Assembly (NCBI GenBank): GCA_903884005.1
Contig: CAISDA010000037.1
Location: 1 to 38,011, forward strand
Direction of reading: 5' to 3'
Length of the DNA: 38,011 nt
DNA from: an uncultured Ignavibacteriota bacterium
GTDB lineage: Bacteria > Bacteroidota > Ignavibacteria > UBA10030 > UBA8401
The notes under the pieces were generated by a model. That model was not told where the DNA came from. It saw only the letters and a list, made by a program, of their open reading frames with translations, and ran no database searches. Within the stretch, counting starts at the first letter, position 1. Every line of letters begins with the position of its first letter. The position numbers and the translations under genes were made by a program. Below, piece after piece: positions 5,807-28,946 of this stretch.

Positions 5807-6715
5807 TCAAATTGACTTCATGTGCATTTTTAGAATGGAATTCATCACTTTATCCCGAATATGGACAAAGAATTTGGGGATGCCTAAAAGATCTATTTCA
5901 ATTCGGTGATCATAGGGCTTCTCCGACACCCCAACGGTATTCAACATGAATAAATTCGTGTTTTCGTCGTCCCACCCGCATGAGTTGGCCCGTGCAGAAT
6001 CATATCCGGCATCATGCGCAATTCTCATGATCCGTCTATTATAATCGCCGTTCGGATAACTCAAATGAACGATCTCTTTATGAAGCATGTCTTCCAACAT
6101 CATTTTTGAATCGGATAATTCATGTGTAATTTCTTCATCCGTGCATCGAGTCAATATCGGATGAAATGATGTGTGTGATTGAAAATCGACGTATGCATTC
6201 ATCTCCTGTACTTCTTCCAGATTCAACGCCTGCCGATCTTCGGCAGGATATTCATTGTGCAGTGAAAATCGATACTGCTCGTACAAGTATTGGTTCTTTT
6301 CGCAGTCGGCGATCATTTTTAATTTCTCAACCTCTTTATTCGACCGCGGTACGGTCCACCAATATTTCCTGTTTGTGCAGACAACACCGCTCGCCAAATA
6401 GATCGTCGGGGTAATATGATATTTTTTGATTATCGGCATCAATTGGTAGTTGCTTCTGTGGCCGTCGTCGATAGTGATCACAACGCTGTGGTGGGGTAAT
6501 TTCCGGACATTTTTTGCTCTCACGGCATCGACGTATTCCGCCAGCGTGATGATATGATGATTACGCAGTAAATATTGAACGTGAGCTTCAAATAGTTCCG
6601 GTGCCGGTTCATGGTAGACGAGTATTGAAATTTTTTCCCGTACAATGAACCGCACAAGTGCGATACAACCGCTATACTTCAGCATATAGTAGACGACGGT
6701 AACCAGTCTGTTCAT
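5807..6715 (-). CDS. Polysaccharide deacetylase (NodB/CE4 domain)
   Basis: A 302-residue carbohydrate esterase family 4 protein. All main motifs are present: TIDDG at residues 81-85 (catalytic Asp plus metal Asp), HTSFH at 181-185 (two metal His) and SYPNG at 219-223. A hydrophobic N-terminal stretch (residues 5-24) could be a membrane anchor. CE4 enzymes remove N- or O-acetyl groups from glycans using a divalent metal, so this one probably edits HexNAc residues of the polymer or an intermediate. The ATG at 6715 has AGAGG about 9 nt upstream; the longer frame to 6796 has an atypical N-terminus. A gap of about 144 bp separates it from the next gene. Confidence 0.9.
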   Translation of the reverse strand: MNRLVTVVYYMLKYSGCIALVRFIVREKISILVYHEPAPELFEAHVQYLLRNHHIITLAEYVDAVRAKNVRKLPHHSVVITIDDGHRSNYQLMPIIKKYHITPTIYLASGVVCTNRKYWWTVPRSNKEVEKLKMIADCEKNQYLYEQYRFSLHNEYPAEDRQALNLEEVQEMNAYVDFQSHTSFHPILTRCTDEEITHELSDSKMMLEDMLHKEIVHLSYPNGDYNRRIMRIAHDAGYDSARANSCGWDDENTNLFMLNTVGVSEKPYDHRIEIDLLGIPKFFVHIRDKVMNSILKMHMKSI

Positions 6716-6818
6716 TCGAAATTGCCTCTGAGTGTGTGCGGAACTGCAGATTGACACGATACATCGATGATGCTGCGGACACGGAATATCCCCCAATGGA
6801 GCGTTGTATACCGATGGT

Positions 6819-7935: not shown

Positions 7936-9012
7936 CTATGGGGTATCGAAGCAACGCTCGGTACTCGTATTCTTCAACATGCGTTCAATTACTTTGTCGG
8001 GACGGGCATGGTGTGAATAATAGGCACGAGCCCCCTCCTCTAATACCGCTCGGTACTTGCCGTCGTTCAATACTGTCTTCACTTCCTTTTTTAAGTCATC
8101 ACTATTTGACACAATATGTATATGCTCACCGTGTACGAGCGATTCCGGGAGCTGATTTGAAAGAGGCGTAGACACAATCGCTTTTCCCATCGCTAAATAC
8201 TCGCCTAATTTCCACCCGTGGCAATTGTGAACAGCTGGTGTGTTGAAGACGATGGCCGACAATTTTGTTTTGGCAATGTAGCTGTCAACCGAGTATGGTT
8301 TTTTAAATAGCAGTTTCTTGTATTCGTTATACTGGGGATGGTCTACGGACGCATAGAACCCGCCTTCATACACACAATGACTGTCGTTACAGGCTTCGAT
8401 GAATAATTTGCGAAGCATGTTCGTCCCCTCAATGCAGCTTTTATGGGACCACAATGTTGCTATCATAAATACATAAGGTGTAACGGCTGTGCCGGTTTTT
8501 TTTTCAGGCGCATGAGTAAACGCCTCTAAGGAAGGTCGTGTATATTGTATATAATAGTCTGCCAGATGATCTTTCAATGATACAATGGGAACACCCTTCA
8601 CCCTTATTAAATTGGAGCAACAATAATACGCGGTTTCCCATAAATTCCATATGTTAATACCGAATCCCGGAGGGATCGATACTATTTTATCGTGGAACGA
8701 TTGTTTTGTTAAATGAACGTTAAAATTAACCTTGGCATACGCGTCGCACCATCGATAAGCGCTTTCTTTGACGGACGGTTTATCCCGGAAATCAATGATG
8801 CATTTAGTGATGACGCTATTGGCACCAATGATCACGAACGCCATGTAGTGGTCGAATGAATGCGTCTCAATTTTTCTATTGAGTTCAGTGAAGTATCTTG
8901 ACGAAAACGAAACATTTTTCTTTCCAAAGACATCGTAAAGGCCTTTAATGTAGTATGAGGAATACAACATCTTGTTCGCAGGATCTATTATTACTCGCGC
9001 ATTCATGAACAT
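7936..9012 (-). CDS. Putative glycosyltransferase, GT-B-like (divergent)
   Basis: A 358-residue protein. Its C-terminal third resembles the nucleotide-sugar site of GT4-type enzymes: FNTPAVHNCHGWKLGEYLAM followed by GKAIVSTPLSNQLPESLVHGEHIHIV, that is a G/E-Y-L-x-x-G-K-A-I-V pattern near residues 270-290 with no standard E-x7-E. The N-terminal half is divergent and contains VIIGANSVI and YRWCDAYAKVNFN (a pattern that could be the acceptor domain). Related proteins occur beside glycosyltransferases in polysaccharide loci. Two ATGs lie at 9012 and 9006; GGA stands before them. It is directly downstream of the ATP-grasp gene. The fold assignment is inference from a few motifs. Confidence 0.65.
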   Translation of the reverse strand: MFMNARVIIDPANKMLYSSYYIKGLYDVFGKKNVSFSSRYFTELNRKIETHSFDHYMAFVIIGANSVITKCIIDFRDKPSVKESAYRWCDAYAKVNFNVHLTKQSFHDKIVSIPPGFGINIWNLWETAYYCCSNLIRVKGVPIVSLKDHLADYYIQYTRPSLEAFTHAPEKKTGTAVTPYVFMIATLWSHKSCIEGTNMLRKLFIEACNDSHCVYEGGFYASVDHPQYNEYKKLLFKKPYSVDSYIAKTKLSAIVFNTPAVHNCHGWKLGEYLAMGKAIVSTPLSNQLPESLVHGEHIHIVSNSDDLKKEVKTVLNDGKYRAVLEEGARAYYSHHARPDKVIERMLKNTSTERCFDTP

Positions 9013-9048
9013 CGTCCGAATTACTGCCGTGATATAGCGATCGATGGA

Positions 9049-10110
9049 TTAGACACATTGTAACACACACCCCTCAACGGCATGCCTGCTGATCGTACCG
9101 GCATTATATGCTTTGATCATTGATTGAATAATTTCATGCGATGGAATTATTTTTTCCTCAATCCTATCGAGCGAACGGGTCCAGTACCCTTCGCCATCGC
9201 CTTTGGCGTAACCAAAACCATACGACATCTCAAGAAGCACGGCGTCACCGCCTTCATTGAGCAGATAATCGAATCCCACCGATTGCATCCCCAGCCGATC
9301 CTTATATTCAAAAGACTGCCGGACAATGTCTATCGGTATCTTTGTGTGGTCATGGTCCTCATCCCCCCCGCCTGAAGCCCTAAAATCCCCCGGTCGCACC
9401 ATTCTCCGACAGCCCCAACATTTATCGCCTGCCAGTTCCAACCTAAAGTCAAAACTATTATTCGGAATAAAATCCTGGAAATACACATATCCCTTTTCAT
9501 TGCCATTCATTTTGGCATATTCTGGTTTGTGAATGATCCGTCGGGAAGACAGCAGCAAATGAGATAATGATATTTTCGCAGCCTTGAATTTTCTCACATT
9601 CTCTCTAATATGCGATTGCATATCAAACGGGCAAAAGCCTCCATCAAATGCCCTCTTGATGAATCTCTGAGCTTCTTTTTTATTTTTCACAAGATGCACA
9701 TTCATCGAAGCGGCCCCGCGGCGCAGTTTAAACACCTTCGGATAACTTGTGGCATCGGCCCACTGCGTTGCGGTGTGTTTGTCGTAGAACACATAACTCG
9801 GCACTAAGGGCGCTTTAATTGCCTCCAATAAATATTTTTGTCCGACTTTATCGTCAAAATGCCAACACGTATTAAAATTGGGGTAAACGTGCATTCCCCG
9901 ATTTTCTAAACTATAGAGTAATTGCTTTGCGAAGATAAGATCTTTATAACAGACATGGCTGTGATGCCACATAAAAATATCACAGTCCGAAACCTGCCCG
10001 ACTATATCGGAGCTATACGCATCGACCACTTTATGGTCAATCTTTCTGTCCTGGCAATAGGTTATCCACTCTCGATTCCAACCCGAATTATTATGTATGG
10101 CTATTTTCAT
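9049..10110 (-). CDS. ATP-grasp ligase-like protein, copy 1 (altered Gly loop)
   Basis: A 353-residue protein with ATP-grasp architecture: N-terminal Rossmann-like segment with DCDIFMWHHSH (42-52), NDKV-type linker FDDKVGQKYLLEAI (85-98), ATP-site lysine in VFKLRRGAAS (126-135), hinge YVYFQDFIP, basic segment RMVRPGDFRASGGG and the terminal metal/Mg site FDYL then LLEMSYGFG. ATP-grasp enzymes activate a carboxylate as an acyl phosphate and join it to an amine or thiol. Here the Gly-rich loop reads RRGAAS, where copy 2 next door has RGGAGS, so ATP binding may be altered. AAGGA lies 8 nt before the ATG. The substrate is unknown; amino-acid ligation to a sugar acid is one possibility. Confidence 0.8.
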   Translation of the reverse strand: MKIAIHNNSGWNREWITYCQDRKIDHKVVDAYSSDIVGQVSDCDIFMWHHSHVCYKDLIFAKQLLYSLENRGMHVYPNFNTCWHFDDKVGQKYLLEAIKAPLVPSYVFYDKHTATQWADATSYPKVFKLRRGAASMNVHLVKNKKEAQRFIKRAFDGGFCPFDMQSHIRENVRKFKAAKISLSHLLLSSRRIIHKPEYAKMNGNEKGYVYFQDFIPNNSFDFRLELAGDKCWGCRRMVRPGDFRASGGGDEDHDHTKIPIDIVRQSFEYKDRLGMQSVGFDYLLNEGGDAVLLEMSYGFGYAKGDGEGYWTRSLDRIEEKIIPSHEIIQSMIKAYNAGTISRHAVEGCVLQCV

Positions 10111-10194
10111 TGCTGTAGTCCTTTTTTTCCCATCACTTGAAATGCTGTGCGAAAAAACATGATCCGGCGAATTGTAGATTCATCGTATCGATCG

Positions 10195-11208
10195 TTATGC
10201 ATCCATCATCATCATCTCGACCATCCAATGCAGCGGATTAAATGAGCCTTCATGAAATTCGAGCGTCGTGTCCCAATACCCTACACACGGTTCATATCCG
10301 GTGTGAGAAAACCCATAGCTCACTTCCACGACCAAAGGATTATTATCGGCATCATACACAAAGTCATACGCGGCACACTGCGATTTAATTTTATCCGTCA
10401 GGGTGAATGCAAGCTCGATTGTACTTAACGGAAAATTATTTCTTTCATATAAAATATTGCCGCTTCCCGACGCCCTGAAGTCATTCGTCCGCACCAATCG
10501 TTTTATGGCAAAGGCCTTCTTGTTGACCACGATCACTCGAATATCGCAGCTGTTGTAGGGAATATAGTCCTGAAAATACACGTATCCTTTTTCGTGGTTC
10601 TGCATGTGAGCATATTCTGTCGATAAAAAAAGACGGCCAATCCCTTTCATTACTCCGATATACGTGTCTTTGCCCTCCCGATAGCGTCTGAATCGTTCTT
10701 TTAGGTATCCGACTCTATTGAACTGAGCGAACCCCTTGTTGAACGCCGTGGTGACAATTTTTTTTGCCTGAGCGGCTGATCGCACCATTCTTACATGCTC
10801 AGAGCCTGCACCTCCCCGCAGTTTGAACACTTTTGGGAAAGAGGTATTGTTGATCCATTCCAACGCGGATTTTTTGGTATAAAAAACATAACTTGGCACT
10901 AATGGGGCGTTTATTGCTTCAAAGAGATATTTTTGGCCGACTTTATCGTTAAAATGCCACGAAGTTTTATAATCGGGAAATGTTTTTTTTCCGCTTTTTT
11001 CAACCGAATACAGTAACTGTCTGGCAAAAAGGACATCTTTATAATCGCCGTGATGGTGATGCCACATGAGAGCCTGACAATCATCAAGGTGAGAGATGAT
11101 GTCCGTTCCATAACAGTTGACGAGTTTATACTCGATGGCATGCGTGTCGCAATACGCGATTCAATGATCGCTAAAGCTTCCAGGTGCGTTGTGAATGGCA
11201 ATTTTCAT
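10195..11208 (-). pseudogene. ATP-grasp ligase-like protein, copy 2, with in-frame TGA at codon 16
   Basis: A paralog of the gene at 9049-10110. Its original start is the ATG at 11208, which overlaps the stop of the upstream CapA gene as ATGA. Reading from there gives MKIAIHNAPGSFSDH, then TGA (11161-11163), then IAYCDTHAIEYKLVNCYG and, without further stops, the full domain to 10195. The neighbour reads MKIAIHN...EWITYC, so the stop replaces a Trp codon (TGG to TGA). Everything after it is intact, with the canonical loop VFKLRGGAGS, YVYFQDYIP, FRASGSG and VVEVSYGFS. A restart at the ATG at 11067 (weak AGG 5 nt upstream) would give a 290-residue protein lacking 47 residues but keeping the ATP site. 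It may be a recent nonsense mutation, a base-calling error or a gene still partly working. Confidence 0.85.
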
Positions 11209-12335
11209 AATGAGAGTATCTTCCTCAGGATGTCTCGATGGGCCTCGCATCGCATCAGATTCAGGAACAGTTTTTTTTTGGAACTCGACACGAGGGAGGG
11301 AAATAAATACCGGCGCCGGAGCCCCTGCATATATTTATTCGAATAGGGTTCTAAAAAAAGATCATACATCCCCCTCACTCGGTGACAATACTCATTAAAA
11401 TGATCCCGCAATTGTAAGTCATCTTGTATGATCTCATTATACCGATCGATCTTTGAAAAGAATCCATTGACGTCATTCCCCTTCATCAGATGCACGCCAA
11501 CGCGGGCATTGTTTTGATGGAACGGTAGTATTTTACACCGCAACCCGGCGTCTGTGATCTTCACAAGTACTGCCATTCCTTCCGTCCACAGTCCCGAACG
11601 TTGTGCACAATCATCAAAAACAAAATTCCCCAAACTATAGAATATCGGTTTTCCTTTATGCCACTCGAAACCGCTGATGCAGTGCGTATGATGACCGATG
11701 ACGGCATCGGCGCCGATGTCGATAAAGAACCGATACGTTGCCGCCATGCGGGGACTTGGCAGGGAGTACATTTCATGGCCGCCATGGACAACGACAAACA
11801 CATACTCTGCCGACTGTTTTGCCCGTTGAATGTCGTAATAATTTTGAACGGGATCCAAAGGCGCTGCTCCGTATCCTTCATCATGTGTCGTCCCAAATTC
11901 ATTCTCAGCGACATTGACAATGGCGATGCGCGTATTCTTTATCGTGGTCGAATAGACTCTTCTCGCCTCGCTATTATTCCGGCCGGCCCCCACAGATTCG
12001 AGTGTATACTGTTTGCAGCTGTCTAATGTGTCTCGTATGCCGGCTTCCCCATAATCCATGATATGGTTATTTGCCAATGTCACGAGGCCGAAACCAGCAT
12101 TTTTTAAGATCTGAAGCGCTTTCGGCTGTACTTTCAATACCGGTCCGGATTTTTCTATCGACGTAGTGGTATGGGTCGCTGGAGCTTCAAAATTAGTTAT
12201 GGAAAGGTCGGCTCCCTGAATGATCGGCAATAGATCGTTGAATATCGAGACATACTGGTTCTGGTCAGACAATTCCTCAATTCGGTTGACCGGGCAATAA
12301 TCTCCAGTGAACAATATGGACACTTCATTTTTCAT
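11205..12335 (-). CDS. CapA-family metallophosphatase-like protein
   Basis: A 376-residue protein of the CapA/PgsA family (calcineurin-like fold), known from poly-gamma-glutamate capsule synthesis but also found in many polysaccharide loci. Motifs in order: GDYCPVNR (11-18), NFEAP (48-52), LANNHIMDYG (87-96), HGGHE (184-188), GHHTH (214-218) and PIFYSLGNF (230-238). These carry the expected metal-ligand Asp, Asn and His residues. No signal peptide is seen, unlike secreted or membrane-anchored CapA proteins. AGGA lies 7 nt before the ATG at 12335, and this ATG overlaps the previous stop as ATGA; its own stop overlaps the next start in the same way. The frame is open to 12395, but that extension lies inside the upstream gene. 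Confidence 0.88.
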   Translation of the reverse strand: MKNEVSILFTGDYCPVNRIEELSDQNQYVSIFNDLLPIIQGADLSITNFEAPATHTTTSIEKSGPVLKVQPKALQILKNAGFGLVTLANNHIMDYGEAGIRDTLDSCKQYTLESVGAGRNNSEARRVYSTTIKNTRIAIVNVAENEFGTTHDEGYGAAPLDPVQNYYDIQRAKQSAEYVFVVVHGGHEMYSLPSPRMAATYRFFIDIGADAVIGHHTHCISGFEWHKGKPIFYSLGNFVFDDCAQRSGLWTEGMAVLVKITDAGLRCKILPFHQNNARVGVHLMKGNDVNGFFSKIDRYNEIIQDDLQLRDHFNEYCHRVRGMYDLFLEPYSNKYMQGLRRRYLFPSLVSSSKKKLFLNLMRCEAHRDILRKILSL

Positions 12336-13561
12336 GCTGCGTTCCTGATTGTTTCGCCTAATTGCGTTGATGTCATAAATTCGACGTCGGGCCACGTCCG
12401 GATGATGCTTGTTAACAATGCATGAAACGACCGTAAATTTTTTTCTCTATTACTCTCCTCAATTCCGCCCATAAAATTGATCCTGTGAACGGAAATAACA
12501 GAGGGCTTCTTCCACAAAAAGGCGGTGCGCATTTCCCGCAGGCAGCTATCCACAGGATCAATGTGAGATGTCAGAGCGGGCTCAAAGAAACAATTCCTGA
12601 TCAAGTACAGCTGACCGGACCGAGTACGCTCTCCTAATGTATGTCTGATGGAATAATTTTTCCCGGACGATGGATCCGGATGCGATTGCGATCGCATACC
12701 CTGAATAAACGTCACTCCATGATCGTACAAGACCGGCAAGAGATCGTTTCCCCATATATAGTTTGCGGCAATATACGATTCGGACTTGTATCCATATTCC
12801 GATTCAAACAATTCCAAGCCTGATCGTAGAATATCGTGCTTCTCCAGACGATCGGATTCTGCGTCATAATCCATGGCAGCTAAATAGCTTTTTCTTTTTT
12901 CCGCAGTAATATCCGTGCTGATGCCGAACACTCCATGGTGATACGCCAGCGAAGACTCGGGTAATTTATTCCGTAATGCAGACATCCACCGCGATACATT
13001 GAGATGTTCTCTGCCGTGAAATTGAGGATAGAACAGCTCACGTGCCATCCCTTCACGGATCAACGCAAAACTATTTGCATGACGCGGATGCCGCGCATAC
13101 GTTTCTCGGACAGTCTCGAAATAATATTCTTCGAACCCCGATTGTTCTATCTTTGTAAAATCCGGATTTGCGACAACACTGTTTGCCGTGATCACCGGGT
13201 GCTTTCCATTCGCAGTTCGGAACGACGTCAACACATCGAACAACGCCGTCAGGTCAGAATCGGATTCAAGTGAATCGAAACGATTGTAGGGGCATTGGTC
13301 GACTCTAATGCCTTTTTTTAGAAGGATGTGATACACATCTTTCGACGGCATCCGGATACTCCCCCAATCGTCGCTCTCGAAAACAACGATCTTCCGATGC
13401 GTCCGCCAACCGGGTGCATTCGATATTGTTCCGGATATGAAATTTTTAATCACTCTGGGCCAATCCCCCGCCGCGTGCGGCGTACAATAAAGTGAGGACG
13501 AAGATACCCCGCTGTGTGCACCGGGTGTTGTGTATGATTCATCGTGAAGTTTTTTCGGCAT
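12332..13561 (-). CDS. Polysaccharide (de)acetylase-like protein of the ESDDWG type
   Basis: A protein of up to about 409 residues with KIVVFESDDWGSIRMPS near its N-terminus, the signature of a family annotated as polysaccharide (de)acetylase. SDDWG stands where CE4 enzymes have TFDDG. Later segments are ANSVVANPDF, FYPQFHGREHLNV, YHHGVFGI and PSVISVHRINFMGG, with several His residues that could bind metal. The start is uncertain. The ATG at 13561 overlaps the upstream gene by 23 bp and has no ribosome site. A GTG at 13453 has GGGGGA 10 nt upstream and begins VIKNFISGTISNAPGW, where homologs usually begin, so it may be the true start. Its TGA overlaps the capA-like ATG. The biochemical role of this family is poorly defined. 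Confidence 0.75.
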   Translation of the reverse strand: MPKKLHDESYTTPGAHSGVSSSSLYCTPHAAGDWPRVIKNFISGTISNAPGWRTHRKIVVFESDDWGSIRMPSKDVYHILLKKGIRVDQCPYNRFDSLESDSDLTALFDVLTSFRTANGKHPVITANSVVANPDFTKIEQSGFEEYYFETVRETYARHPRHANSFALIREGMARELFYPQFHGREHLNVSRWMSALRNKLPESSLAYHHGVFGISTDITAEKRKSYLAAMDYDAESDRLEKHDILRSGLELFESEYGYKSESYIAANYIWGNDLLPVLYDHGVTFIQGMRSQSHPDPSSGKNYSIRHTLGERTRSGQLYLIRNCFFEPALTSHIDPVDSCLREMRTAFLWKKPSVISVHRINFMGGIEESNREKNLRSFHALLTSIIRTWPDVEFMTSTQLGETIRNAA

Positions 13562-14741
13562 TGAGTGAAGTAAAAAAATCGACCAATTTCGGCCCATAGA
13601 GGGAATAATGAAAATTTTTCTCAGCAATTGTTCTTCCATTGGCCCCCAGCGTCGTCGCTTTCGCCGGATCATCGAGAAGACCGCAAATTGCCGATGCAAA
13701 AGCGGTAATGTCTCCCGGGGGCGTCAGACGCGCGCTCATTCCATCCTCAATAAATCGCGGTATTTCACCGACAGGGTTCGTAACCACAGGTCTCCCCGAG
13801 GCCAGATACTCTCCCAATTTTGTCGGAAACCGTGCATGCGAGTACAGCTCATCGAACATAGGCAGCACGAGCACGGATGAGGACGCATATTCTTTCAGTA
13901 ACACGCTTCGTTCCACATATCCGACAAAACGAATTCTCCCGTTTGTGCGTGATAAGTTAAAACCAGGCGTGGACTCGTTGGCGCCGCCGGCTATAACCAA
14001 TTGACAGTCCGGATGCCGTTCCCACACAGAATCCATGACCTCTAATAAGAAACTGAATGTGTCGTTATACACCGGTGATCCCGCAAACAAGACAGATTTG
14101 CCGGCCAGTGGAGCAGCAACAGGCTCGAACTCGGCAATGTCGACCAATATTGGAATTTCACAGACAGCAACGGAGCGTGTCGTTTTGATATTTTCCTTTC
14201 CGATCCAATCGCGAAGGAAGCGTGAAATGCACACGACCCCGTCTATGCCCCACAACGGTGAAATTTTTTTTTCAACCATCGTCGGCTTTTCTTTCAGGTT
14301 CCAGGGCGCCTCACACAAATCGATGACGATCGGTACATTATTTTTTTGTGCCATCCTTCGCACGATGAATCGTTCAAAGTCCAGTTTCAACATGGGCGTA
14401 TAGAAGTACAATCCATCCAGCGCGTTGTCCCTGGCAGCACGGCTCATCTTCGTCCGGGCAGTCCATGCCAGAGCGAAGCGGTCGAATATCCGCCGCACTT
14501 TCCGGGAACTGGCTTGGGTTCTTCCAAGAAGAAATTCGAAGCGGACACCGTCTTTGGTGCCGCTCGCTTCATGATTTCGCGCATCGGCCCAACTGTCCAA
14601 TCCATCCACCCATACCTGCACCGATGCACCCGCTTCGGTCATGGCACGTGCCATCAAATGGATCCGCTGTGCCTCCGCCATGCCAATAGGGTAGGGAGTT
14701 CTACCGGTGAGAATGCCAATATGCAATTGTGCATCGGTCAT
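13539..14741 (-). CDS. Glycosyltransferase family 4
   Basis: A 400-residue GT-B glycosyltransferase. The N-terminus HIGILTGRTPYPIGMAEAQR contains the acceptor loop, followed by a basic helix (RKVRRIFDR) and FYTPMLKLDF. The C-terminal domain shows VLFAGSPVYNDTFSFLLEVM, IRFVGYVERSVLLKEYASSSVLVLP and FPTKLGEYLASGRPVVTNPVGEIPRFIEDG, with the variant form of the donor motif in which P-x-K-x-x-E-Y replaces E-x7-E. No ribosome site is evident before the ATG at 14741. It is separated from the FkbM gene by about 100 bp. Donor and acceptor are unknown. Confidence 0.9.
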   Translation of the reverse strand: MTDAQLHIGILTGRTPYPIGMAEAQRIHLMARAMTEAGASVQVWVDGLDSWADARNHEASGTKDGVRFEFLLGRTQASSRKVRRIFDRFALAWTARTKMSRAARDNALDGLYFYTPMLKLDFERFIVRRMAQKNNVPIVIDLCEAPWNLKEKPTMVEKKISPLWGIDGVVCISRFLRDWIGKENIKTTRSVAVCEIPILVDIAEFEPVAAPLAGKSVLFAGSPVYNDTFSFLLEVMDSVWERHPDCQLVIAGGANESTPGFNLSRTNGRIRFVGYVERSVLLKEYASSSVLVLPMFDELYSHARFPTKLGEYLASGRPVVTNPVGEIPRFIEDGMSARLTPPGDITAFASAICGLLDDPAKATTLGANGRTIAEKNFHYSLYGPKLVDFFTSLNAEKTSR

Positions 14742-16573: not shown

Positions 16574-17941
16574 TCACAAAGAATGCACGCTGGTATTGCT
16601 CTTCCAGTCATCGGCCGCTTCTTCATAAAATGAAAGATAGTGATCGGCCATCCTCTTTTTGTCGTAGTGTCGTGCCGCATGGGCTGCTGCCGCCGTGGAC
16701 AAAGCGCATCGAAAACGTGTGTCGGCAAATAGTGTTACCACTGCGTTCACTATAGCCTCTGCGTCTCTCACCGGGGTCAATATTCCGGTGCTGCCATCAA
16801 TTATTTGCTCCGGTATTCCTCCCACACGAGTGGCAACAACAGGCGTCCCGCATGCAAGAGCTTCCAATATCACCGATGGAAAAACGTCAGCCAAAGCCGG
16901 ATGAAGATATATATCCGCTGCACGATAGTACAACCGCAGCTGCGCCGGAGAACTTATATATGGGACGAACCTAATTTTTTCGGCCCATTCGGACGCCGAC
17001 GAAGGATCTTCGCCGATACCGAGAAATAGTATCTCTTCGTCGTGCATCGTGTTCGCAATGAGGTGAACCACACGCTTCATCGTTCCGTAATCACGGAATG
17101 GATTGTTCCGGATGCCGTTTGCCGCGAACATAATGATCTTCGCCGTAAGGGGTAAGCCTAGATGCGCCCGCGCTTCGATCTTATTTCCCGGCGAAAACAC
17201 GCACGTATCGATCCCGTTTGGAATCAATCGCGTCATGGCAGCCGCTCCGCGCAGCAGCGATGATTCCACCTTATCCAGCGCCCATTGTGACGGCGCGGCA
17301 ATATAGAGCCTGCTTGAAGAAAAAATGGTTTTCTTCTTTTCCCAATTTTTACGGGTCGCATCTGTTCTCACTTCCGGAGGACTTTTCAAATCCGGACATT
17401 CCCCGCATCCGGACATCCATCTCACACAATCAAAAGGATGCGCGCAATGGCCGGTCATGGTCCATAGGTCGTGCATGGTTAACACTGTCGGTAGTGTCTT
17501 GGTCAGCCTTGCTACAGATGAAAGGTCGAAATAATTTCCATGGAGATTATGGAGATGCAATACATCAGGCCGTTCGGGTATCATCTGTAACAGTGAATCG
17601 GAGGCGGGGAAATTGAAATCTTCATATCCCCGCAGATAATCGAACGCACGCTGTGGTGTTGCAACAAAAGGAAGAATTTGTTCGCCCATGCGCTGGGCGC
17701 CTCGATATGTTCCGCTGAATTGAACGGCCTTTTTTGCAGCCGCCATCCAAAAACGCCCCCAGCACGTTCGGTAACGATCGTTCTCGATCAAAAAAGAGGC
17801 AGGTGCATGTTCCTTGCGTCTTCCATATACGGCAAAGGCAGAAAGATCGCGGCGGAGAAATTCCTGATGCAGCGTTCGGCACACTCCCGCTGCGCCTCCG
17901 GCTCCATCTTGCGTATTGACCTGGCAGACAGAACGAATCAT
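16574..17941 (-). CDS. Glycosyltransferase family 4 (WcaC-like)
   Basis: A GT-B glycosyltransferase of 455 residues from the ATG at 17941, which overlaps the previous gene's stop as TAATG and so is probably translationally coupled. N-terminal QVNTQDGAGGAAG (acceptor loop), LHLHNLHGNYFDL, TMHDLWTMTGHCAHPFDC with C-x5-C-type cysteines (SGCGECPDL) seen in the WcaC-like group, IPNGIDTCVF, and the donor motif DVFPSVILEALACGTPVVAT, where Asp replaces the first Glu of E-x7-E. An in-frame start at 17989 lies inside the upstream gene and is less likely. The next gene follows after 90 bp. Confidence 0.92.
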   Translation of the reverse strand: MIRSVCQVNTQDGAGGAAGVCRTLHQEFLRRDLSAFAVYGRRKEHAPASFLIENDRYRTCWGRFWMAAAKKAVQFSGTYRGAQRMGEQILPFVATPQRAFDYLRGYEDFNFPASDSLLQMIPERPDVLHLHNLHGNYFDLSSVARLTKTLPTVLTMHDLWTMTGHCAHPFDCVRWMSGCGECPDLKSPPEVRTDATRKNWEKKKTIFSSSRLYIAAPSQWALDKVESSLLRGAAAMTRLIPNGIDTCVFSPGNKIEARAHLGLPLTAKIIMFAANGIRNNPFRDYGTMKRVVHLIANTMHDEEILFLGIGEDPSSASEWAEKIRFVPYISSPAQLRLYYRAADIYLHPALADVFPSVILEALACGTPVVATRVGGIPEQIIDGSTGILTPVRDAEAIVNAVVTLFADTRFRCALSTAAAAHAARHYDKKRMADHYLSFYEEAADDWKSNTSVHSL

Positions 17942-18978
17942 TAGAGGGCATTTCTCCTTAAGTAGTGGTGAAACGAATCTCCTGAGCAATCCCGAACAAT
18001 CAATCGGGGAAGTTGAAAGGGATCGGTCTCCGCACTGATCCGGGCCTGAAAATTGCTCGATGCGTTCAGACAGCCGGCTCCTATGACAATGGCGCGAGAA
18101 TGTGCGTCGTACGAATCCTGAGTGCCATAGGGGTATGCAAAACTGGTAACTTTTTTGTGCGTGTTTGCCTCAATCGTTTCAATTGATCCAATAATTTCCT
18201 TACGCTGGGCCTCTTTATCCAGCGAGGACAAAAAAACATGGTTGACGGTATGAGCACCGATATCAACGAGTCCGTCAACAGCCAAAGTCCTGATCTGTTC
18301 CCACGACAGAGCCCGGTGAGTTCGCCGCGCAGAGCCGCTGTCGCCGACAACGGTCCGAAGGTCATGAATAACCTGTTCCTGAATTTCGTACGACCGGTTC
18401 CTCAAAATACAGTGCAGATCCCGATAGGCTTTATGAGCGGGTGTCGGATGACCGGCATCCCGGACGGTCCATGAATCATTGCGAAGATCACGCTGTCGGT
18501 TGTGTGACCGATACAACTGCCATACGTAGTGTTCCTCTGCAATATTCAACTTTAAAATTTTCGGCAATCTGCCGGTCCGTAGCATAACCCGCTCCAGTTC
18601 ATCGCAAAAAAATTCGCGATGCGAAGAGACATAGCCGGTGGTAACAAATATGGTGGCCGGGATTGAATATTTTTTCAGCAATGGCCAGGCATAATCGTAA
18701 TTGTTGGCATAGCCGTCATCGAACGTAATTGCAACGGCGTTGCGGGGAACAGTTCCATTGAGGGCTGCAGCGGCCAAGTCGTTCAGCGGCAACACACGGT
18801 AGAATTTGCTGAGCACCTCAAGGTGTTCTTCGAAATGTGCCGGCGTTACCGAGAGCAACTGCGGATCGGCTGATACATCATTCACACGATGATAAATGAG
18901 GATTGTCGGACCAGGGGCAATCCGCCCCCGTATCTGCCGCAATGCATTCCGGAATCTTCCCAAACCGCGAATTCTCAC
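17941..18978 (-). CDS. Polysaccharide deacetylase (NodB/CE4 domain)
   Basis: A 345-residue CE4 protein with a complete motif set: TFDDG at 85-89, HTVNH at 243-247 and AYPYG at 281-285. It has a long insert (about residues 115-220) between motifs 1 and 2, as in many deacetylases from exopolysaccharide loci. No signal peptide is evident, so it may act on the cytoplasmic face. It starts with GTG, with GAGG 6 nt upstream, and overlaps the upstream stop as GTGA. It is the second of the two standard CE4 genes in the window; the other is at 5807-6715. They are only distantly alike and probably act on different residues. Confidence 0.93.
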   Translation of the reverse strand: MRIRGLGRFRNALRQIRGRIAPGPTILIYHRVNDVSADPQLLSVTPAHFEEHLEVLSKFYRVLPLNDLAAAALNGTVPRNAVAITFDDGYANNYDYAWPLLKKYSIPATIFVTTGYVSSHREFFCDELERVMLRTGRLPKILKLNIAEEHYVWQLYRSHNRQRDLRNDSWTVRDAGHPTPAHKAYRDLHCILRNRSYEIQEQVIHDLRTVVGDSGSARRTHRALSWEQIRTLAVDGLVDIGAHTVNHVFLSSLDKEAQRKEIIGSIETIEANTHKKVTSFAYPYGTQDSYDAHSRAIVIGAGCLNASSNFQARISAETDPFQLPRLIVRDCSGDSFHHYLRRNAL

Positions 18979-20144
18979 TTCACACCTCTCAATATTCGTA
19001 ATATATTTTCAATTCCCATTTGTGCCCGATACGATCTTCTGTCCATCAGCCGGGTACTGGGCTTGCTGCTAACACGCACCTCTGGCCGTTGCAGCAGGCA
19101 GCGGAAGACCGAGTAGAATGGCAGTACCTTGGCGGCACGAGCGATAAAGGCAATGCAACCGTGAAGAACCGGAAGTGCGCCAACCCACACCTTTCTCAGC
19201 AACCGCCCAACGCGATATCGGGGAGTCTGTATGATACGCAGTATGTCGTCGGTTGGGCGAAGTTCAATGTTCGGATGCCTTTCCGCCTGAATATTCGCAA
19301 TCATTTCGAGCACCTGCTTGGGATGTGCCCCCTTATATTCTTCCAGCCAACTCATCGGATAATGGAGTACATCGCATACTGCATATGGGTCGAGCAACTT
19401 GAAATAAATTTGTTCCGCCCACCTTTCCATCAGTTGAAATGCCGCCCAATCGACACATGAGTAATACGCACATTTTTGCCGAACTTGTTTCGGCAATAGC
19501 ATACAATAATGATAAAGAAAAATTTTCCGTTTCCGTATTTCCGGGCCAGACTTCCATTCTCTGTGCCGCATATCCGTTCCTTCACCATCAATCACTGTCG
19601 GCGGACGATGTGTCGTATATCTGTAGTTTTTTCCCCAGGCGAACAAGCGATGGATTTGAGTGAAATGAACGCTTAAATATTCTCCGTTCTCTAGAAAATC
19701 AATACCGCCCCAAAATTGAAGAATAGGAAATGAAATTTGAGTGCACCCTGTTTCAAGCATAGCAACAATTGCAGGCATGTCTTCTTCCAGGTAGAATTCA
19801 TCCACATCCACCTGCCACAGGTGTGTGCCGGTAGCACGCCGCGCATACGCCTGAGACATCTCATGTTTTTCGCCGGGCCAAAATCCGCTCGGATGCCCTT
19901 CATCCTCCGCTCTCACAATCGTGATCTTATTCTCCGGATCTTCTTTCATCTTGAACCGGTGCAGCACTTCCAATGTATCGTCGATGGAATGACCGTCGGG
20001 TGTGGCGACCGCTGCTGCTGCCTGGCACGCCCCTTCAACAACGATTATTTGATGCGCCCAGGGATATATCGACCGCAGATTGTAGCGTGTAAACGGTTCC
20101 CCGTTAAGCACGATCATTCCAAACGTGATACGTGGTCCACCCAT
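18975..20144 (-). CDS. Glycosyltransferase family 2-like protein
   Basis: A GT-A-like protein of 389 residues from the ATG at 20144, which has AAGG 7 nt upstream; a GTG at 20165 is possible but without a ribosome site. Motifs: FGMIVLNGEPFTRYNLRSIYP at the N-terminus, IIVVEGA (33-39) and VDVDEF (112-117) as the metal-binding D-x-D. These are typical of a group of GT2-related enzymes in polysaccharide loci. A hydrophobic stretch near residues 320-345 could be a membrane helix. Its role is probably a glycosyl transfer, but the donor and linkage are unknown. Its TGA overlaps the GTG of the deacetylase gene. Confidence 0.85.
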   Translation of the reverse strand: MGGPRITFGMIVLNGEPFTRYNLRSIYPWAHQIIVVEGACQAAAAVATPDGHSIDDTLEVLHRFKMKEDPENKITIVRAEDEGHPSGFWPGEKHEMSQAYARRATGTHLWQVDVDEFYLEEDMPAIVAMLETGCTQISFPILQFWGGIDFLENGEYLSVHFTQIHRLFAWGKNYRYTTHRPPTVIDGEGTDMRHREWKSGPEIRKRKIFLYHYCMLLPKQVRQKCAYYSCVDWAAFQLMERWAEQIYFKLLDPYAVCDVLHYPMSWLEEYKGAHPKQVLEMIANIQAERHPNIELRPTDDILRIIQTPRYRVGRLLRKVWVGALPVLHGCIAFIARAAKVLPFYSVFRCLLQRPEVRVSSKPSTRLMDRRSYRAQMGIENILRILRGVK

Positions 20145-20174
20145 GTGAGAGCCTTCATCGGACACAAGTGTGTT

Positions 20175-21539
20175 TCACCGTGATACATCGACATTTTGAA
20201 GAACAAACTTACGCTTTCCTCTCGTGGTGAGAGGAATCGAATCGATGAACCTAATATGTGCTTGGATAGCAGCAATTTTTCGAAAATTCGAGACGATCTC
20301 TTCAGCGTCCTCGTTCGAAAAATCGGGAGACGGAACGATCAACAGGGTAATGACACCGGGCGTATCCTGTACGATCTGCCATATGACAATATTTTTATAC
20401 GCCTTTAAATGTTGTCCGAAACCGATCGCAGGAATACTTGAACCATCACTGCGGAATAATAAGTCTTGTCTGCGCCCCAACATGTGTTCGAGAAAAACTA
20501 CTCCCTTCTTGATTCCGCCAAATACTGCCAGATCTCCCGTCCGGTATCGAATAAAGGGCATTGCAAAATTCCAGAATCCTGTCACAACCACTTCCCCTTC
20601 ATCCCCTACCGCAACGTGGCGCCCTTGGTTGTCGAGAACTTCAACGAGCCCAATAAAAGGAGAGCACTTGTACACATGTTTTCCTGCTTCCGTATGTCCA
20701 TATAATGCCCCTTCAGAATGGCCGTATTGACGATAGACTCGAGTATGAAAAGCCGCCTCGATCAATCCGATTTGTTCTTCACTACACATTTCCGCCGTGA
20801 GCTGGACACCTTTGATTGGTTGAATAAATTCGATTCCATGATCGAGGCAATAGCGTGCGACTTCAGATATGGCCGACGGGTACCCCAATAAGAATGAAAT
20901 TCCCGATTTTTGAATATGGTGAACATACTGAAGTATCGTGTCTTGTTTTAAGTGTAATGTTGAAAATATGGTGCTGCCATACGGCAGCTCATTCGGAGGA
21001 TTTCTGGCAATCCAATAAATTTTTTCATCCAACAATTGTTGGGGAACCGGAGAACCGGCAAAGGCGGCGATCCTGTCTCCTTCCCGATATCCCATTTTCT
21101 CAAACCAATACGCCTGGTGCGCTGAAAGCATCGTTCCCATATATTGGCACGTCATAAATTCGAGAGGCTCGCCGGTGCTTCCGCCCGTGTTGAAAACGCC
21201 GGTGTGCATGAAGCTCACCCGATCGGACATAAGCGATTGATAATTTTTTTTAACGATGGCCTTCTCGAGCAGGGGCACTTCTGTGAATCTGGAAAGATCA
21301 CGTGCATCCCACTGCATCGAACGAAACATATCCGTGTAATAGGGGCAATGGACTTTGGCATACGACAATATGCGGCTCAATCTATGTAATCTGCCATGTT
21401 CCAAAGTGTCCGCCGGTTCAGTCTCCATATGACGGAGCTGGTCAAGTGTTTTCTTGTATAAATAATGGAATTTCAGCGATTCAGCAAAACGCGCGCCATG
21501 AACGATTGGACGCTGCAACCACTTAATGGAATGGATCAT
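20175..21539 (-). CDS. PaaK/CapK-like adenylate-forming enzyme, copy A
   Basis: A 454-residue member of the phenylacetate-CoA ligase/CapK branch of adenylate-forming enzymes. It has NTGGSTGEP at 117-125 (the phosphate loop), YGHSEG at 272-277, YRTGD at 332-336 (ribose contact), GRRQD at 355-359 and the C-terminal lysine region TTRGKRKF near 438-445. Such proteins activate a carboxylic acid with ATP; CapK homologs are frequent in capsule loci but their substrates are mostly unknown. The next gene, at 21576-22937, is a tandem paralog, clearly alike over the whole length with no gaps through residue 340. The start is the ATG at 21539. All motifs look complete, so this copy is likely active. Confidence 0.9.
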   Translation of the reverse strand: MIHSIKWLQRPIVHGARFAESLKFHYLYKKTLDQLRHMETEPADTLEHGRLHRLSRILSYAKVHCPYYTDMFRSMQWDARDLSRFTEVPLLEKAIVKKNYQSLMSDRVSFMHTGVFNTGGSTGEPLEFMTCQYMGTMLSAHQAYWFEKMGYREGDRIAAFAGSPVPQQLLDEKIYWIARNPPNELPYGSTIFSTLHLKQDTILQYVHHIQKSGISFLLGYPSAISEVARYCLDHGIEFIQPIKGVQLTAEMCSEEQIGLIEAAFHTRVYRQYGHSEGALYGHTEAGKHVYKCSPFIGLVEVLDNQGRHVAVGDEGEVVVTGFWNFAMPFIRYRTGDLAVFGGIKKGVVFLEHMLGRRQDLLFRSDGSSIPAIGFGQHLKAYKNIVIWQIVQDTPGVITLLIVPSPDFSNEDAEEIVSNFRKIAAIQAHIRFIDSIPLTTRGKRKFVLQNVDVSR

Positions 21540-21575
21540 GCATGGCCTCCGTCAGTCCGTTCTCAACATTGTTCT

Positions 21576-22937
21576 TCAGGAAATATTTTGCAGCAGCAGC
21601 CGCCGCTTGCCGCTCATGGTCAATGGAATAGAATCAACGGGCGTAACAACTGCGGTGATCGAAGCGAAGTCCTTAAATTTCTTGACGATCTCCCGCTCAT
21701 CATCACTCGAAAAATCGGGCAGCGGGACAACCAACACTTTCACTACGCCCGGTTGGTCTTGCGTGATCTGCCACACATCAACATTCTTTAATGCTTTTAA
21801 ATCGTGTCCCAGGGGTATAGATTTTAAGGGAATCCGTGCGCCGTCGCTGCGAAGCACCCAATTTTGCGCACGCCCTTCAAGACGTTTCAGGTGAACCACC
21901 CCCTCATGGGTACCGCCATATACCGCTAAATCTTCAGTGCGATACCGGATAAAAGGCATGGCAAAATTCCAAAATCCGGTCACAACGATTTCCCCCTCCT
22001 CCCCAACCCCGACGTGGCGCCCATGCGCATCCAGAACTTCGACAAACCCAACGAAAGGCGAACAGTCGTATTCCTGTTTGTCCGCTTCGGTATGCCCATA
22101 AATGGATCCCTCTGCATGACCATACTGGCCGTACACGTGAGTCTGAAAAGCCGTCCTGATCAACTCGATTTGTTCATCACTCACCATTTCCGCAGTGAGT
22201 TGAACACCTTTGATCGGTTGAGGGAACGTGATCTGATGGTCGAGACAATAACGAGCGACCTCTGAGATCGCCGAGGGATATCCTAACAGGAATGAAAACC
22301 CGGACTCCTGAAGGCTTCGGATATACCATGAGATCGTATCCTGGTTCAAATATCGGGTGGAATAAATGATGCTGCCATACGGAAGTTCATCCGGAGTGTC
22401 TCTGGCAATCCAATAGATGTTGTTCTCCAGCATTTGTTGGCATAAAGTAGCGCCGGAAAATGCCGCGATCCTGTCTCCTTCCTGATATCCCATTTTCTCG
22501 AACCAATATCTCTGGTGCGCCGAAACAACTGTCCCCATTTGGTGACAGGAAAGGAACTGAAGAGGCTGGCCGGTGCTGCCGCCCGTATTGAACGGGCCTG
22601 CATGGATGAACTGAATTCGATCGGAAACAAGCGCTTGATAATTAGATCTGATTATTTTTTTATCAAGCAACGGAAGTTCGGCGAATCCCGAGAGATCGCG
22701 TGTATTCCATTTCATCGCACGGAACAGGTTCGTGTAAAACGGACAATGCTCGCCGGCATAGGTAAGAATACGATGTAATTTCTTTTGTCTGCAGTTGTGT
22801 AATTTGCCGGCTTCGGCAGAATCCATATGATAGAGCTGGTCGAGTATCGTCTTCGATAAAAGGTGAAGCTCCACCGTGTCCGCAAATCGGGCTCCATGAA
22901 CAATTGGATGGTGCAACCAGGTTATTGTATTATTCAT
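21576..22937 (-). CDS. PaaK/CapK-like adenylate-forming enzyme, copy B
   Basis: A 453-residue tandem paralog of the gene at 20175-21539, over half identical by eye and aligned without gaps in the first 340 residues. NTGGSTGQP (117-125) and YGHAEG (272-277) are conserved, as is the C-terminal GKRR. However, YRTGD is changed to YRTED at 332-336 and the next motif reads GRAQN instead of GRRQD. A Gly-to-Glu change in the ribose loop is unusual for the family, so activity or nucleotide preference may differ. The ATG at 22937 has GGAG 7 nt upstream. The separation between the two copies is 36 bp, which fits a local duplication followed by divergence. Confidence 0.9.
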   Translation of the reverse strand: MNNTITWLHHPIVHGARFADTVELHLLSKTILDQLYHMDSAEAGKLHNCRQKKLHRILTYAGEHCPFYTNLFRAMKWNTRDLSGFAELPLLDKKIIRSNYQALVSDRIQFIHAGPFNTGGSTGQPLQFLSCHQMGTVVSAHQRYWFEKMGYQEGDRIAAFSGATLCQQMLENNIYWIARDTPDELPYGSIIYSTRYLNQDTISWYIRSLQESGFSFLLGYPSAISEVARYCLDHQITFPQPIKGVQLTAEMVSDEQIELIRTAFQTHVYGQYGHAEGSIYGHTEADKQEYDCSPFVGFVEVLDAHGRHVGVGEEGEIVVTGFWNFAMPFIRYRTEDLAVYGGTHEGVVHLKRLEGRAQNWVLRSDGARIPLKSIPLGHDLKALKNVDVWQITQDQPGVVKVLVVPLPDFSSDDEREIVKKFKDFASITAVVTPVDSIPLTMSGKRRLLLQNIS

Positions 22938-26633: not shown

Positions 26634-27941
26634 CTACAATGTTCCATCAACACTTGCAGTATGAATGAAATTTTTAACATCATAGATCACGCATTTATGG
26701 TGCAGCTTAAGACATTCAATATTTATTTCCCTGAATCGCTCGTGCGCAACGGCCAGAATGATAGCGCTGTAATGATTTCCATTGAGCTCCGTCAGAATAT
26801 CGATTCCATATTCGTGGCGCACGTCTGCCGGCTTCGCCCATGGATCGTAGATCTCAACATCAATGCCGTAATTTTTGAGTTCGTGAACTATGTCCACGAC
26901 CTTCGTGTTTCGTATATCCGGACAGTTCTCTTTGAACGTAATACCGAGAATAAGCACTTTCGCACCGTTAACGATGTGGTCTTTCCGGATCATTAATTTT
27001 ACAACCTCAGCGGCCACAAACTTGCCCATGCCGTCGTTTAATCTCCGGCCTGCCAGAATAATCTCAGGGTGATAACCGTACTCTTGGGCCTTTTGGGCCA
27101 AATAATACGGATCAACGCCGATGCAGTGGCCGCCAACCAATCCCGGTTTAAATGGGAGAAAGTTCCATTTCGATCCGGCCGCCTGGAGCACCGCATCTGT
27201 GTCTATGTTCATGAGGTTGAAGATCTTCGCCAATTCATTCATAAAGGCAATATTGATATCCCTTTGTGAATTTTCTATCACTTTGGCGGCTTCCGCCACT
27301 TTTATGGTCGGCGCTAAATGCGTCCCGGCGGTGATCACAGACCGATAGAGCATGTCCACCTTCAGGCCTGTCTCCGGCGTCGAGCCTGACGTGACCTTTT
27401 TTATTTTTTCAACCGTGTGCTCTTTATCTCCGGGGTTGATGCGCTCGGGCGAGTATCCGGCAAAGAAATCTTCATTCAACCGTAACCCGGATACGTTCTC
27501 AACAACGGGGATACAATCTTCCTCTGTTGCACCCGGATAGACAGTCGATTCATAGATCACGATATCGCCTTGTGAGATCACACGGCCGACCGTGTCGCTT
27601 GCTTTTTTCAGTGGAGTTAAATCGGGCCGATTATTTTTGTCGACCGGCGTGGGAACGGTAACGATATAAATATTGCAGGCTTTGATCTCGGTAATGTCGC
27701 TCGAGCAAAACAATCCAACCGTTCCCCCGCTGCAGGGATTTTCTTTCACGAGTGAGGATCGGAGAATATCGTCGGAGACTTCCAGCGTGTGATCATGCCC
27801 GTGCATCAATTCCTGTACTCTGGCATTGTTCACATCGAAGCCTACCACAGGATATTTTGTTGCAAAGAGCCGGGCCAGCGGCAAACCGACATACCCCAGA
27901 CCGATGATCCCGATGCGGATATTGTTCAAAGGTTCATTCAT
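26634..27941 (-). CDS. UDP-N-acetylhexosamine 6-dehydrogenase (TviB/WbpO type)
   Basis: An NAD-dependent nucleotide-sugar dehydrogenase of 435 residues, converting a UDP-HexNAc to the uronic acid. GIIGLGYVG at 11-19 is the NAD loop, ESTVYPG near 131-137 and the catalytic Cys273 lies in [30 protein letters not shown] is the distinctive segment of the UDP-GalNAc/UDP-GlcNAc dehydrogenase branch (TviB, VipA, WbpO) and not of UDP-glucose dehydrogenases. The ATG at 27941 overlaps the stop of the epimerase gene by 8 bp. The frame extends to 27971, but [11 protein letters not shown] is the natural start. With the epimerase beside it, the expected product is UDP-GalNAcA (inference). Confidence 0.92.
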
Positions 27942-28935: not shown

Positions 28936-28946
28936 AAGAGTATCCC

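Follow-up and report, generated by a model that had tools for sequence, protein, structure and literature searches.

A recurrent gene cassette that may form amide decorations on the surface polysaccharide of an uncultured Ignavibacteriota bacterium

Introduction

The RimK, LysX and ArgX enzymes form amide bonds that join amino acids to carboxylates. Amide-linked amino acids are also chemically known on surface polysaccharides, and few of the ligases that add them there have been characterized. In Campylobacter jejuni, Cj1438C amidates glucuronic acid with serinol phosphate or ethanolamine phosphate, after which Cj1435 removes the phosphate (PMC11800379); a published table also lists an ATP-grasp ligase in a polysaccharide locus, CA_C2189 near CA_C2195 (PMC4000134). 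Here we analyze a five-gene block in a 38,011-nucleotide stretch of DNA from an uncultured Ignavibacteriota bacterium (contig CAISDA010000037.1 of assembly GCA_903884005.1, taken whole and hereafter called the window), which encodes a protein with an ESDDWG motif, a CapA-like protein, two ATP-grasp ligases (AG1 and AG2) and a divergent glycosyltransferase.

An original prediction for this block, made from its open reading frames (ORFs), suggested that the genes form a sub-pathway that deacetylates an amino sugar and attaches an amino acid or another acyl group, or that builds a peptide-like side chain. Our analysis leads us to a related interpretation, to which we assign a probability of about 0.5: the genes belong to a decoration cassette that has spread horizontally among surface-polysaccharide loci and forms amides on a deacetylated sugar, with CapA perhaps trimming phosphate. 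A search of the open-access literature found no description of this gene set, most subscription papers lying outside its scope, and an earlier prediction is possible.

Results

Organization of the five-gene block

All five genes were confirmed on the minus strand, on which every recognized gene of the window lies, and are transcribed in the order ESDDWG gene (12332–13453), CapA (11205–12335), AG1 (10195–11208), AG2 (9049–10110) and glycosyltransferase GT7936 (7936–9012). The original prediction described the genes as coupled through ATGA junctions; such start–stop overlaps are found between the ESDDWG gene and CapA and between CapA and AG1 only, and AG2 is not coupled in this manner because 84 bp separate it from AG1. 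A further 36 bp lie between AG2 and GT7936. For the ESDDWG gene, ATG 13561 and TTG 13699 are also open; we prefer GTG 13453, which the alignment favors, because most of the 36 residues added from ATG 13561 lack a counterpart in the 28 other aligned rows (the exception being L013:7906, in one of the numbered loci described below) and because residues 1–29 of the structural model have a predicted local distance difference test score (pLDDT) under 50.

The GT4-like GT7936 falls below the Pfam cut-off of every glycosyltransferase family that it matches (23.6 bits against 26.4, 23.9 against 25, and 21.1 against 27), so that its earlier description as divergent is fair. We place it outside the conserved unit because no ORF in the other loci described below finds its best window match in GT7936 at more than 50 bits. 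The GC content of AG1, AG2 and GT7936 (0.42–0.44) is lower than that of CapA and the ESDDWG gene (0.46) and of the whole window (0.49), and, together with the sporadic occurrence of the ligase family, fits acquisition.

AG1 and AG2 are RimK-type ligases

AG1 and AG2 are 41% identical and align in one family (the AG family), 45 of whose 48 aligned members match the RimK domain (PF08443) at E up to 1e-3. The block does contain two ATP-grasp ligases, as first proposed, but AG1 bears an in-frame TGA at codon 16 (11161–11163, minus strand) that had gone unnoted; of the 47 other family members in the alignment, 46 have Trp at this codon. Apart from this triplet AG1 stays open to its TAA, and it is listed as an ORF only from an internal ATG at 11067. 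In domain-family scans that covered 30 of the 73 listed window ORFs, the resulting 290-residue frame scores 34 bits against PF08443 (cut-off 21), and AG2 has no Pfam match of its own. Both proteins remain below the cut-off of the curated RimK model TIGR00768 (48.2 and 32.1 bits against 143.4); the AG family profile recovers RimK by sequence (E 2e-7), and also LysX. None of the five Pfam families to which the 48 members align at E up to 1e-3 is TupA-like, and a plasmid search with AG2 returned no match.

A model of AG2 built from the 48-row alignment (pLDDT 89.4) resembles the same enzymes. The 11 best structural matches are all LysX, ArgX or RimK entries, with Z-scores from 22.4 to about 19.2; the first nine (Z 21.2–22.4) superpose with a root-mean-square deviation of 2.8–3.1 over 266–272 residues, and the remaining two, LysX entries at Z 19.6 and 19.2, are tied with synapsin (18.9), the first representative of another group. 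Residues K88, K128, R223, R236, R239, D281 and E294 are invariant in all 48 aligned members; from the alignment with RimK we take K88 and K128 to be the ATP-site lysines and D281 and E294 to be metal ligands. AG2 keeps every residue that is invariant in this alignment, and its Ala 134 occurs in no other member. A loss of the Gly loop in AG2, suspected from three sequences, was dropped because the loop varies within the family. These proteins are thus of the RimK/LysX/ArgX type, and amide ligation is well supported by family.

CapA and the ESDDWG protein

CapA was correctly recognized from the start as a CapA-like protein: it matches PF09587 (PGA_cap; calcineurin-type phosphoesterase fold family) with 210.9 bits against a cut-off of 27. 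Its sole credible solved relative by sequence is MslH, an epimerase of lasso peptides, found at E 1.7e-15 with the window protein and 3e-31 with the family profile; against the curated MslH model NF038314 it scores 74.8 bits, far under the cut-off of 700. MslH has two His/Asp dyads and one Ca ion, without the second metal of YmdB-type enzymes (PMC10406935). All 30 aligned CapA-family members keep D12, E50, N90, H91, D94, H184, H216 and H218, of which D12, H91, D94 and H218 align with the MslH dyad residues Asp11, His88, Asp91 and His295. H216 preserves the HxH spacing of YmdB His175 and His177, at a position occupied by Gly293 in MslH, and the residue aligned with the MslH ligand His261 is a histidine in 18 of the 30 members. 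YmdB Asn40 found no counterpart in CapA when matched through the MslH alignments and the residue list of PMC10406935. By this alignment argument, the CapA site reads as that of a putative two-metal phosphoesterase. A poly-gamma-glutamate-like polymer, and with it a CapA role in such a pathway, is not supported, as no CapB- or CapC-type family is present among the 30 scanned window ORFs.

The model of the ESDDWG protein (mean pLDDT 89.7) finds CE4-type deacetylases, an allantoinase, human NDST1 and GH57 enzymes among its 50 nearest structures (Z 14.4–19.6), with a best Foldseek E of 1.7e-7. Because these include glycosidases, the modeled fold alone cannot separate a deacetylase from a glycosidase. 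D64, D65, H182, H186 and H359 are invariant in all 29 aligned members, and the arrangement of a DD pair, an HxxxH motif and a late C-terminal His matches the CE4 deacetylase pattern. The window protein matches no Pfam family, PF01522 included, which three of the 29 members match weakly (best E 0.007); 20 of the 29 give a GH57 match that is likewise weak (E up to 0.1, best 3e-4), and a sequence search of the PDB with the window protein gave no match. The original designation of the protein as deacetylase-like is supported by the predicted CE4-type fold taken together with the conserved residues.

The genes recur in a fixed order in other glycan loci

A genome-collection scan with a three-row AG alignment gave 159 confirmed relatives, of which the best 80 were kept. 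These loci, numbered with the prefix L, were joined by L005 and 20 further stretches to make 101; L119 and L128, which repeat the AG of L037 and L038, were removed together with L134 (AG under 250 bits) to leave 98, and L001–L004 and L006 were left out of the counts. Of L087–L114, the coordinates alone entered the analysis. The 98 loci do not equal 98 genomes: L011, L016, L017 and L034 come from one metagenome-assembled genome (MAG), and L039/L078, L054/L077 and L068/L080 share one assembly per pair. Genes were called as longest ORFs by a simple script. By their record titles, the best 80 belong mostly to Bacteroidota and Balneolia, and also to Acidobacteriota, Nitrospirota, Planctomycetota, Cloacimonadota, several proteobacterial classes and a spirochaete.

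Among the 98 loci, CapA is present in 35, the ESDDWG gene in 34, a DUF362 gene in 12, asparagine synthase in 13 and a UDP-sugar dehydrogenase in 17; in 40 control loci the corresponding counts are 0, 0, 0, 1 and 3. The controls are hand-picked PF02397-anchored loci, one per genome, from the same phylum, and were compared with only those 75 AG loci that span at least 14 kb. Because this control is poorly matched, we place weight on gene order within loci. CapA lies directly upstream of AG in 25 of 34 same-strand loci (3.8 expected), and the ESDDWG gene directly upstream of CapA in 10 of 15 (2.2 expected); none of 2000 shuffles reached either value. The ESDDWG gene lies within two genes upstream of AG 17 times against 10.0 expected, a figure reached by 11 of 2000 shuffles. 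The 4-base CapA/AG overlap of the window is found in 12 of the 35 CapA-bearing loci. The exact ESDDWG–CapA–AG–AG order occurs elsewhere in L011 and L034, from one MAG, and in L125; in L013 a sulfotransferase gene stands between the ESDDWG gene and CapA. Outside Bacteroidota, the CapA–AG pair is present in Cloacimonadota (L041), Nitrosomonas (L076), Pacificimonas (L079) and a deltaproteobacterium (L085). Cultured bacteria that carry the genes intact include Fodinibius roseus (L030) and Flavobacterium suaedae (L057); Draconibacterium orientale (L051) has AG with neither CapA nor an ESDDWG gene close by. Comparison of genome neighborhoods was the check set beforehand for the original prediction, and its outcome is that the genes recur linked and ordered; the possibility that they are unlinked in all relatives is excluded. 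Since the order recurs elsewhere, the block is more than chance.

Other genes can stand in the place of CapA. Of 12 loci with a DUF362 gene, eight (L012, L029, L042, L046, L050, L052, L054 and L055) have it immediately before AG (1.1 expected), and none of the loci listed contains both DUF362 and CapA. Asparagine synthase takes this same position in eight of the 12 loci that have it on the AG strand (1.4 expected) and stands between CapA and AG in L031, L060, L070 and L126. Genes for PF14397 ATP-grasp proteins lie between the ESDDWG gene and AG in three loci without CapA: L116 (7679–8809), L117 (7787–8893) and L037 (7969–9069, Aliifodinibius salipaludis). This exchange of CapA for DUF362, asparagine synthase or PF14397 genes suggests that the kind of substituent added depends on which gene occupies the upstream slot.

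Several loci show peculiarities of their own. CapA is split into two ORFs beside AG in L008 (6056–6720) and L038 (9015–10004), as broken genes or assembly errors. In the MAG LKNA01, the source of L011, L016, L017 and L034, each contig has its own CapA–AG set, which may reflect mixed strains or several loci per organism. In L006 (contig 74 of genome G026, a relative of the same order), a distantly AG-like frame lies close to genes of the DUF362 and asparagine synthase clusters.

Co-occurrence within the phylum

We also scored 395 genomes of the phylum of the window, its own genome included, counting AG at 290 bits or more and CapA at 330 bits or more. AG matches at E up to 1e-15 occur in 28 genomes, six with weak or partial matches being uncounted, and CapA matches at E up to 1e-30 in 74, only the 10 at or above 330 bits being counted; absences are soft, as at most four to five candidates were scored per genome. 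AG and the ESDDWG gene each occur in 22 genomes, and both in 16 (Fisher p 4e-19). By genus, AG is present in 13 and the ESDDWG gene in 12 of 170; nine genera have both, in one case with the two genes in different genomes (p 6e-10). Of the 16 genomes, 15 have the two genes within 6 kb on one strand, and G165 has them on opposite strands at a distance of 29 kb. Five of the 10 genomes with CapA also carry AG (p 7e-5). None of these p values is corrected for relatedness beyond genus. Only two of 59 further near relatives gave an AG match, and one of these matches is weak; the better, G042, has the ATGA overlap between CapA and AG as well. This scarcity among near relatives indicates that the cassette is sporadic.

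Tandem ligases and the AG1 stop codon

Tandem AG genes occur in eight of the 98 loci. In a 35-row tree, one clade (support 100/99) unites the first copies, on the CapA side, of L011, L013, L017, L034 and L125 with those of L016, L024 and L035, and four of the five second copies form another group (94/87), the second copy of L017 standing apart. As L011, L017 and L034 derive from one MAG, this two-clade pattern covers three genomes, and the tandem is thus an old duplication of which both paralogues have been kept in at least three genomes; such joint retention points to two roles, either two successive additions or two different ones. L045 (10001–14179), from a Bacteroidia MAG, has four tandem AG genes, with no CapA or ESDDWG gene in the examined stretch.

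The window copies group with neither clade. A 111-row tree leaves AG1 and AG2 unjoined, which raised the idea that they are unrelated copies; this was set aside, as forcing them together gives a higher likelihood (p 0.79 in the approximately unbiased test, p-AU), and their sisterhood is not rejected in the 35-row tree either (p-AU 0.27). From these trees, duplication in place stays open. The end branch of AG2 measures 1.31 in the 111-row tree, compared with 0.51 for AG1 and a median of 0.39, and about 2.2 in the 35-row tree. Given the stop at codon 16, the AG1 step may have been lost in this genome, with only the step of AG2 still working; otherwise a short form of AG1 may be made, or the base may be an assembly error.

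Genomic context of the block

Outside the block, the window carries families typical of a surface-polysaccharide locus: Wzc-like and SLBB proteins, an ABC transporter with Wzt_C, Wzy_C, a UDP-GlcNAc 2-epimerase, a sugar-phosphate transferase and many glycosyltransferases. A GT4 glycosyltransferase gene (13539–14741, minus strand) lies upstream of the ESDDWG gene, and the ATGA at its stop is in another frame than the latter. A TviB-like nucleotide-sugar dehydrogenase and a TviC-like epimerase (26634–28950, minus strand), both under their curated cut-offs (549.5 bits against 592, and 350.2 against 760), are a possible source of a UDP-N-acetylhexosamine uronic acid (GlcNAcA or GalNAcA). Two further polysaccharide deacetylases (PF01522) are encoded at 5807–6796 and 17941–18978.

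Tandem PaaK/CapK-like adenylating enzymes at 20175–22937, whose best NCBIfam match, below cut-off, is the DVU_1553 family, had been proposed to supply activated acids. Their cluster is found in four of the 75 AG loci of at least 14 kb (four of 80 in another count) and in none of the 40 controls (p 0.3), and this part of the proposal is not sustained. Between the PaaK genes and a polysaccharide deacetylase lies a 396-residue protein (18975–20165) with no Pfam, NCBIfam or PDB-sequence match. At the edge of the glycan locus are a 757-residue protein with an FGE-sulfatase domain (33226–35499) and a small protein with a type IX secretion tail (32435–33109).

Discussion

In the cassette that we favor, the ESDDWG enzyme would take the N-acetyl group off an N-acetylhexosamine in a cytosolic glycan precursor, and the RimK-type ligases would use ATP to form an acyl phosphate and then join the freed amine through an amide to a small acid, which is probably an amino acid. 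The two ligases would provide two steps or two substituents, and CapA, by analogy with the separate phosphatase of the Campylobacter capsule, might strip a phosphate carried by the ligase substrate. The order of these steps and their substrates are guesses. In a more specific version, which we consider doubtful, the two paralogous ligases would build a two-residue, peptide-like side chain on the amine freed by the deacetylase on a lipid-linked sugar, CapA would dephosphorylate the building block, and partners would be swapped to vary the substituent. Of the sub-pathway first proposed, a recurring unit and an amide-forming ligase family have stood; the contributions of PaaK and of poly-gamma-glutamate chemistry have not.

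Several observations weigh against this interpretation. The control loci share little with the AG loci, the main glycosyltransferase cluster being present in 10 of 40 against 64 of 75. The ESDDWG gene is directly upstream of AG in five of 34 loci, no excess over the 5.8 expected, and the ESDDWG-bearing loci among the best 80 are, per record titles, all of Bacteroidota type, so that a deacetylase step cannot be general to the ligase. No ESDDWG gene is seen in 64 of the 98 loci and no CapA in 63, some of these loci ending at contig edges; within the phylum, 17 of the 22 AG genomes lack a CapA of at least 330 bits, and five of the 10 genomes with such a CapA lack a counted AG. The CapA slot can hold DUF362, asparagine synthase or PF14397 genes, partners that a single phosphatase role leaves unexplained. 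The Mg-ligand Asn of the RimK E-x-N motif is Ser in 47 of 48 AG members and Asn in one, and the fold of the ESDDWG model is common to GH57 glycosidases (Z up to 17.5) and the allantoinase (18.7). Finally, the AG1 stop and the long AG2 branch may signal decay.

A different acceptor would invert the chemistry: the ligase could activate the carboxyl of a uronic acid and couple it to an amine, for instance that of an amino acid or of a phosphorylated amino alcohol, with CapA then removing the phosphate and the ESDDWG protein serving another sugar. We regard this as possible, if somewhat unlikely. It is consistent with the TviB-like and TviC-like enzymes of the window, with the precedent of the same kind in Campylobacter, with the position of asparagine synthase, an amide former, next to AG, and with the majority of AG loci that have no ESDDWG gene; LysX and ArgX likewise join a carboxylate to an amine. 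Set against these points, UDP-sugar dehydrogenases occur in only 17 of the 98 AG loci (in 15 of the 75 that span at least 14 kb and in 3 of the 40 controls; p 0.11) and in none of 15 cases directly upstream of AG, whereas the ESDDWG gene is present in 34 of 98. Because the dehydrogenases are so infrequent and never adjacent, we rank the sugar amine before the uronate as acceptor in this window, with modest confidence.

It is also conceivable, although in our judgment improbable, that the cassette has decayed here and that the AG1 nonsense codon and drift in AG2 leave no decoration at all. The TGA at codon 16 and the AG2 branch lengths favor such a loss; the lack of any further stop in AG1, its branch of 0.51, the intact invariant residues of AG2, and open ESDDWG and CapA frames argue for retained function.

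We think it quite unlikely that CapA is an MslH-like C-alpha epimerase that converts a ligated L-amino acid to the D form. MslH is its only credible solved relative, and the four dyad positions are kept in 30 of 30 members; the score of 74.8 bits against the MslH cut-off of 700, the H216 that would give a YmdB-type HxH where MslH has Gly293, and a His261 counterpart that is His in only 18 of 30 members speak against it. That the genes are separate tools of polysaccharide loci, co-located by block shuffling with no joint pathway, accords with the many AG loci without CapA or an ESDDWG gene and with a CapA label that changes at least 27 times on the 111-row AG tree (a count without a shuffled-label baseline), but is likewise quite unlikely given the fixed order, the start–stop overlaps, the CapA–AG pairs outside Bacteroidota and the joint retention of paralogous tandem ligases.

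If the amide-forming cassette is correctly read, the recurring gene set, its ligase family in many phyla and its swappable partners predict which genomes encode amide-decorated glycans, and they would give a function to a branch of PGA_cap proteins now annotated by analogy with poly-gamma-glutamate synthesis.

The individual components resemble known enzymes to differing degrees. The AG proteins share with RimK, LysX and ArgX the fold (Z 21–22), the ATP-site lysines, a DxR...R..DFR motif, and an Asp and a Glu near the C-terminus; they differ in an identity of 14–19% in the nine best matches, in the Ser at the Mg-ligand Asn position, and in their location in glycan loci. They have that location in common with the PF14397 sugar-transfer-associated ATP-grasp proteins, a separate family that the 48 AG members do not match at E up to 1e-3. 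The ESDDWG protein has the fold (Z 14–19.6) of CE4/NodB and NDST-type N-deacetylases and their DD, HxxxH and late His (29 of 29), but it shows an identity of about 10–15%, a length of about 370 residues, and RN..EP and HR motifs of its own. CapA shares dyad residues with MslH, its nearest solved relative by sequence, yet has HTH in place of HGPH, does not keep the His261 counterpart and carries its own C-terminal NLIRCEAHRD motif (Cys in 30 of 30); with CapA/PgsA of poly-gamma-glutamate synthesis it shares the PF09587 domain, and differs in having an ATP-grasp gene as its cassette partner where CapB- or CapC-type genes would be expected. As a system, the closest parallel is the amidation of the C. 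jejuni capsule, which likewise pairs an ATP-grasp ligase, encoded in a capsule locus, with an enzyme that removes phosphate; in our cassette, however, the ligase is of the RimK rather than the TupA type, the partner is a calcineurin-type CapA, and a deacetylase and a second ligase are added. Amide decoration by an ATP-grasp enzyme is already proven in Campylobacter, and the cassette described here would be a recurrent variant of it.

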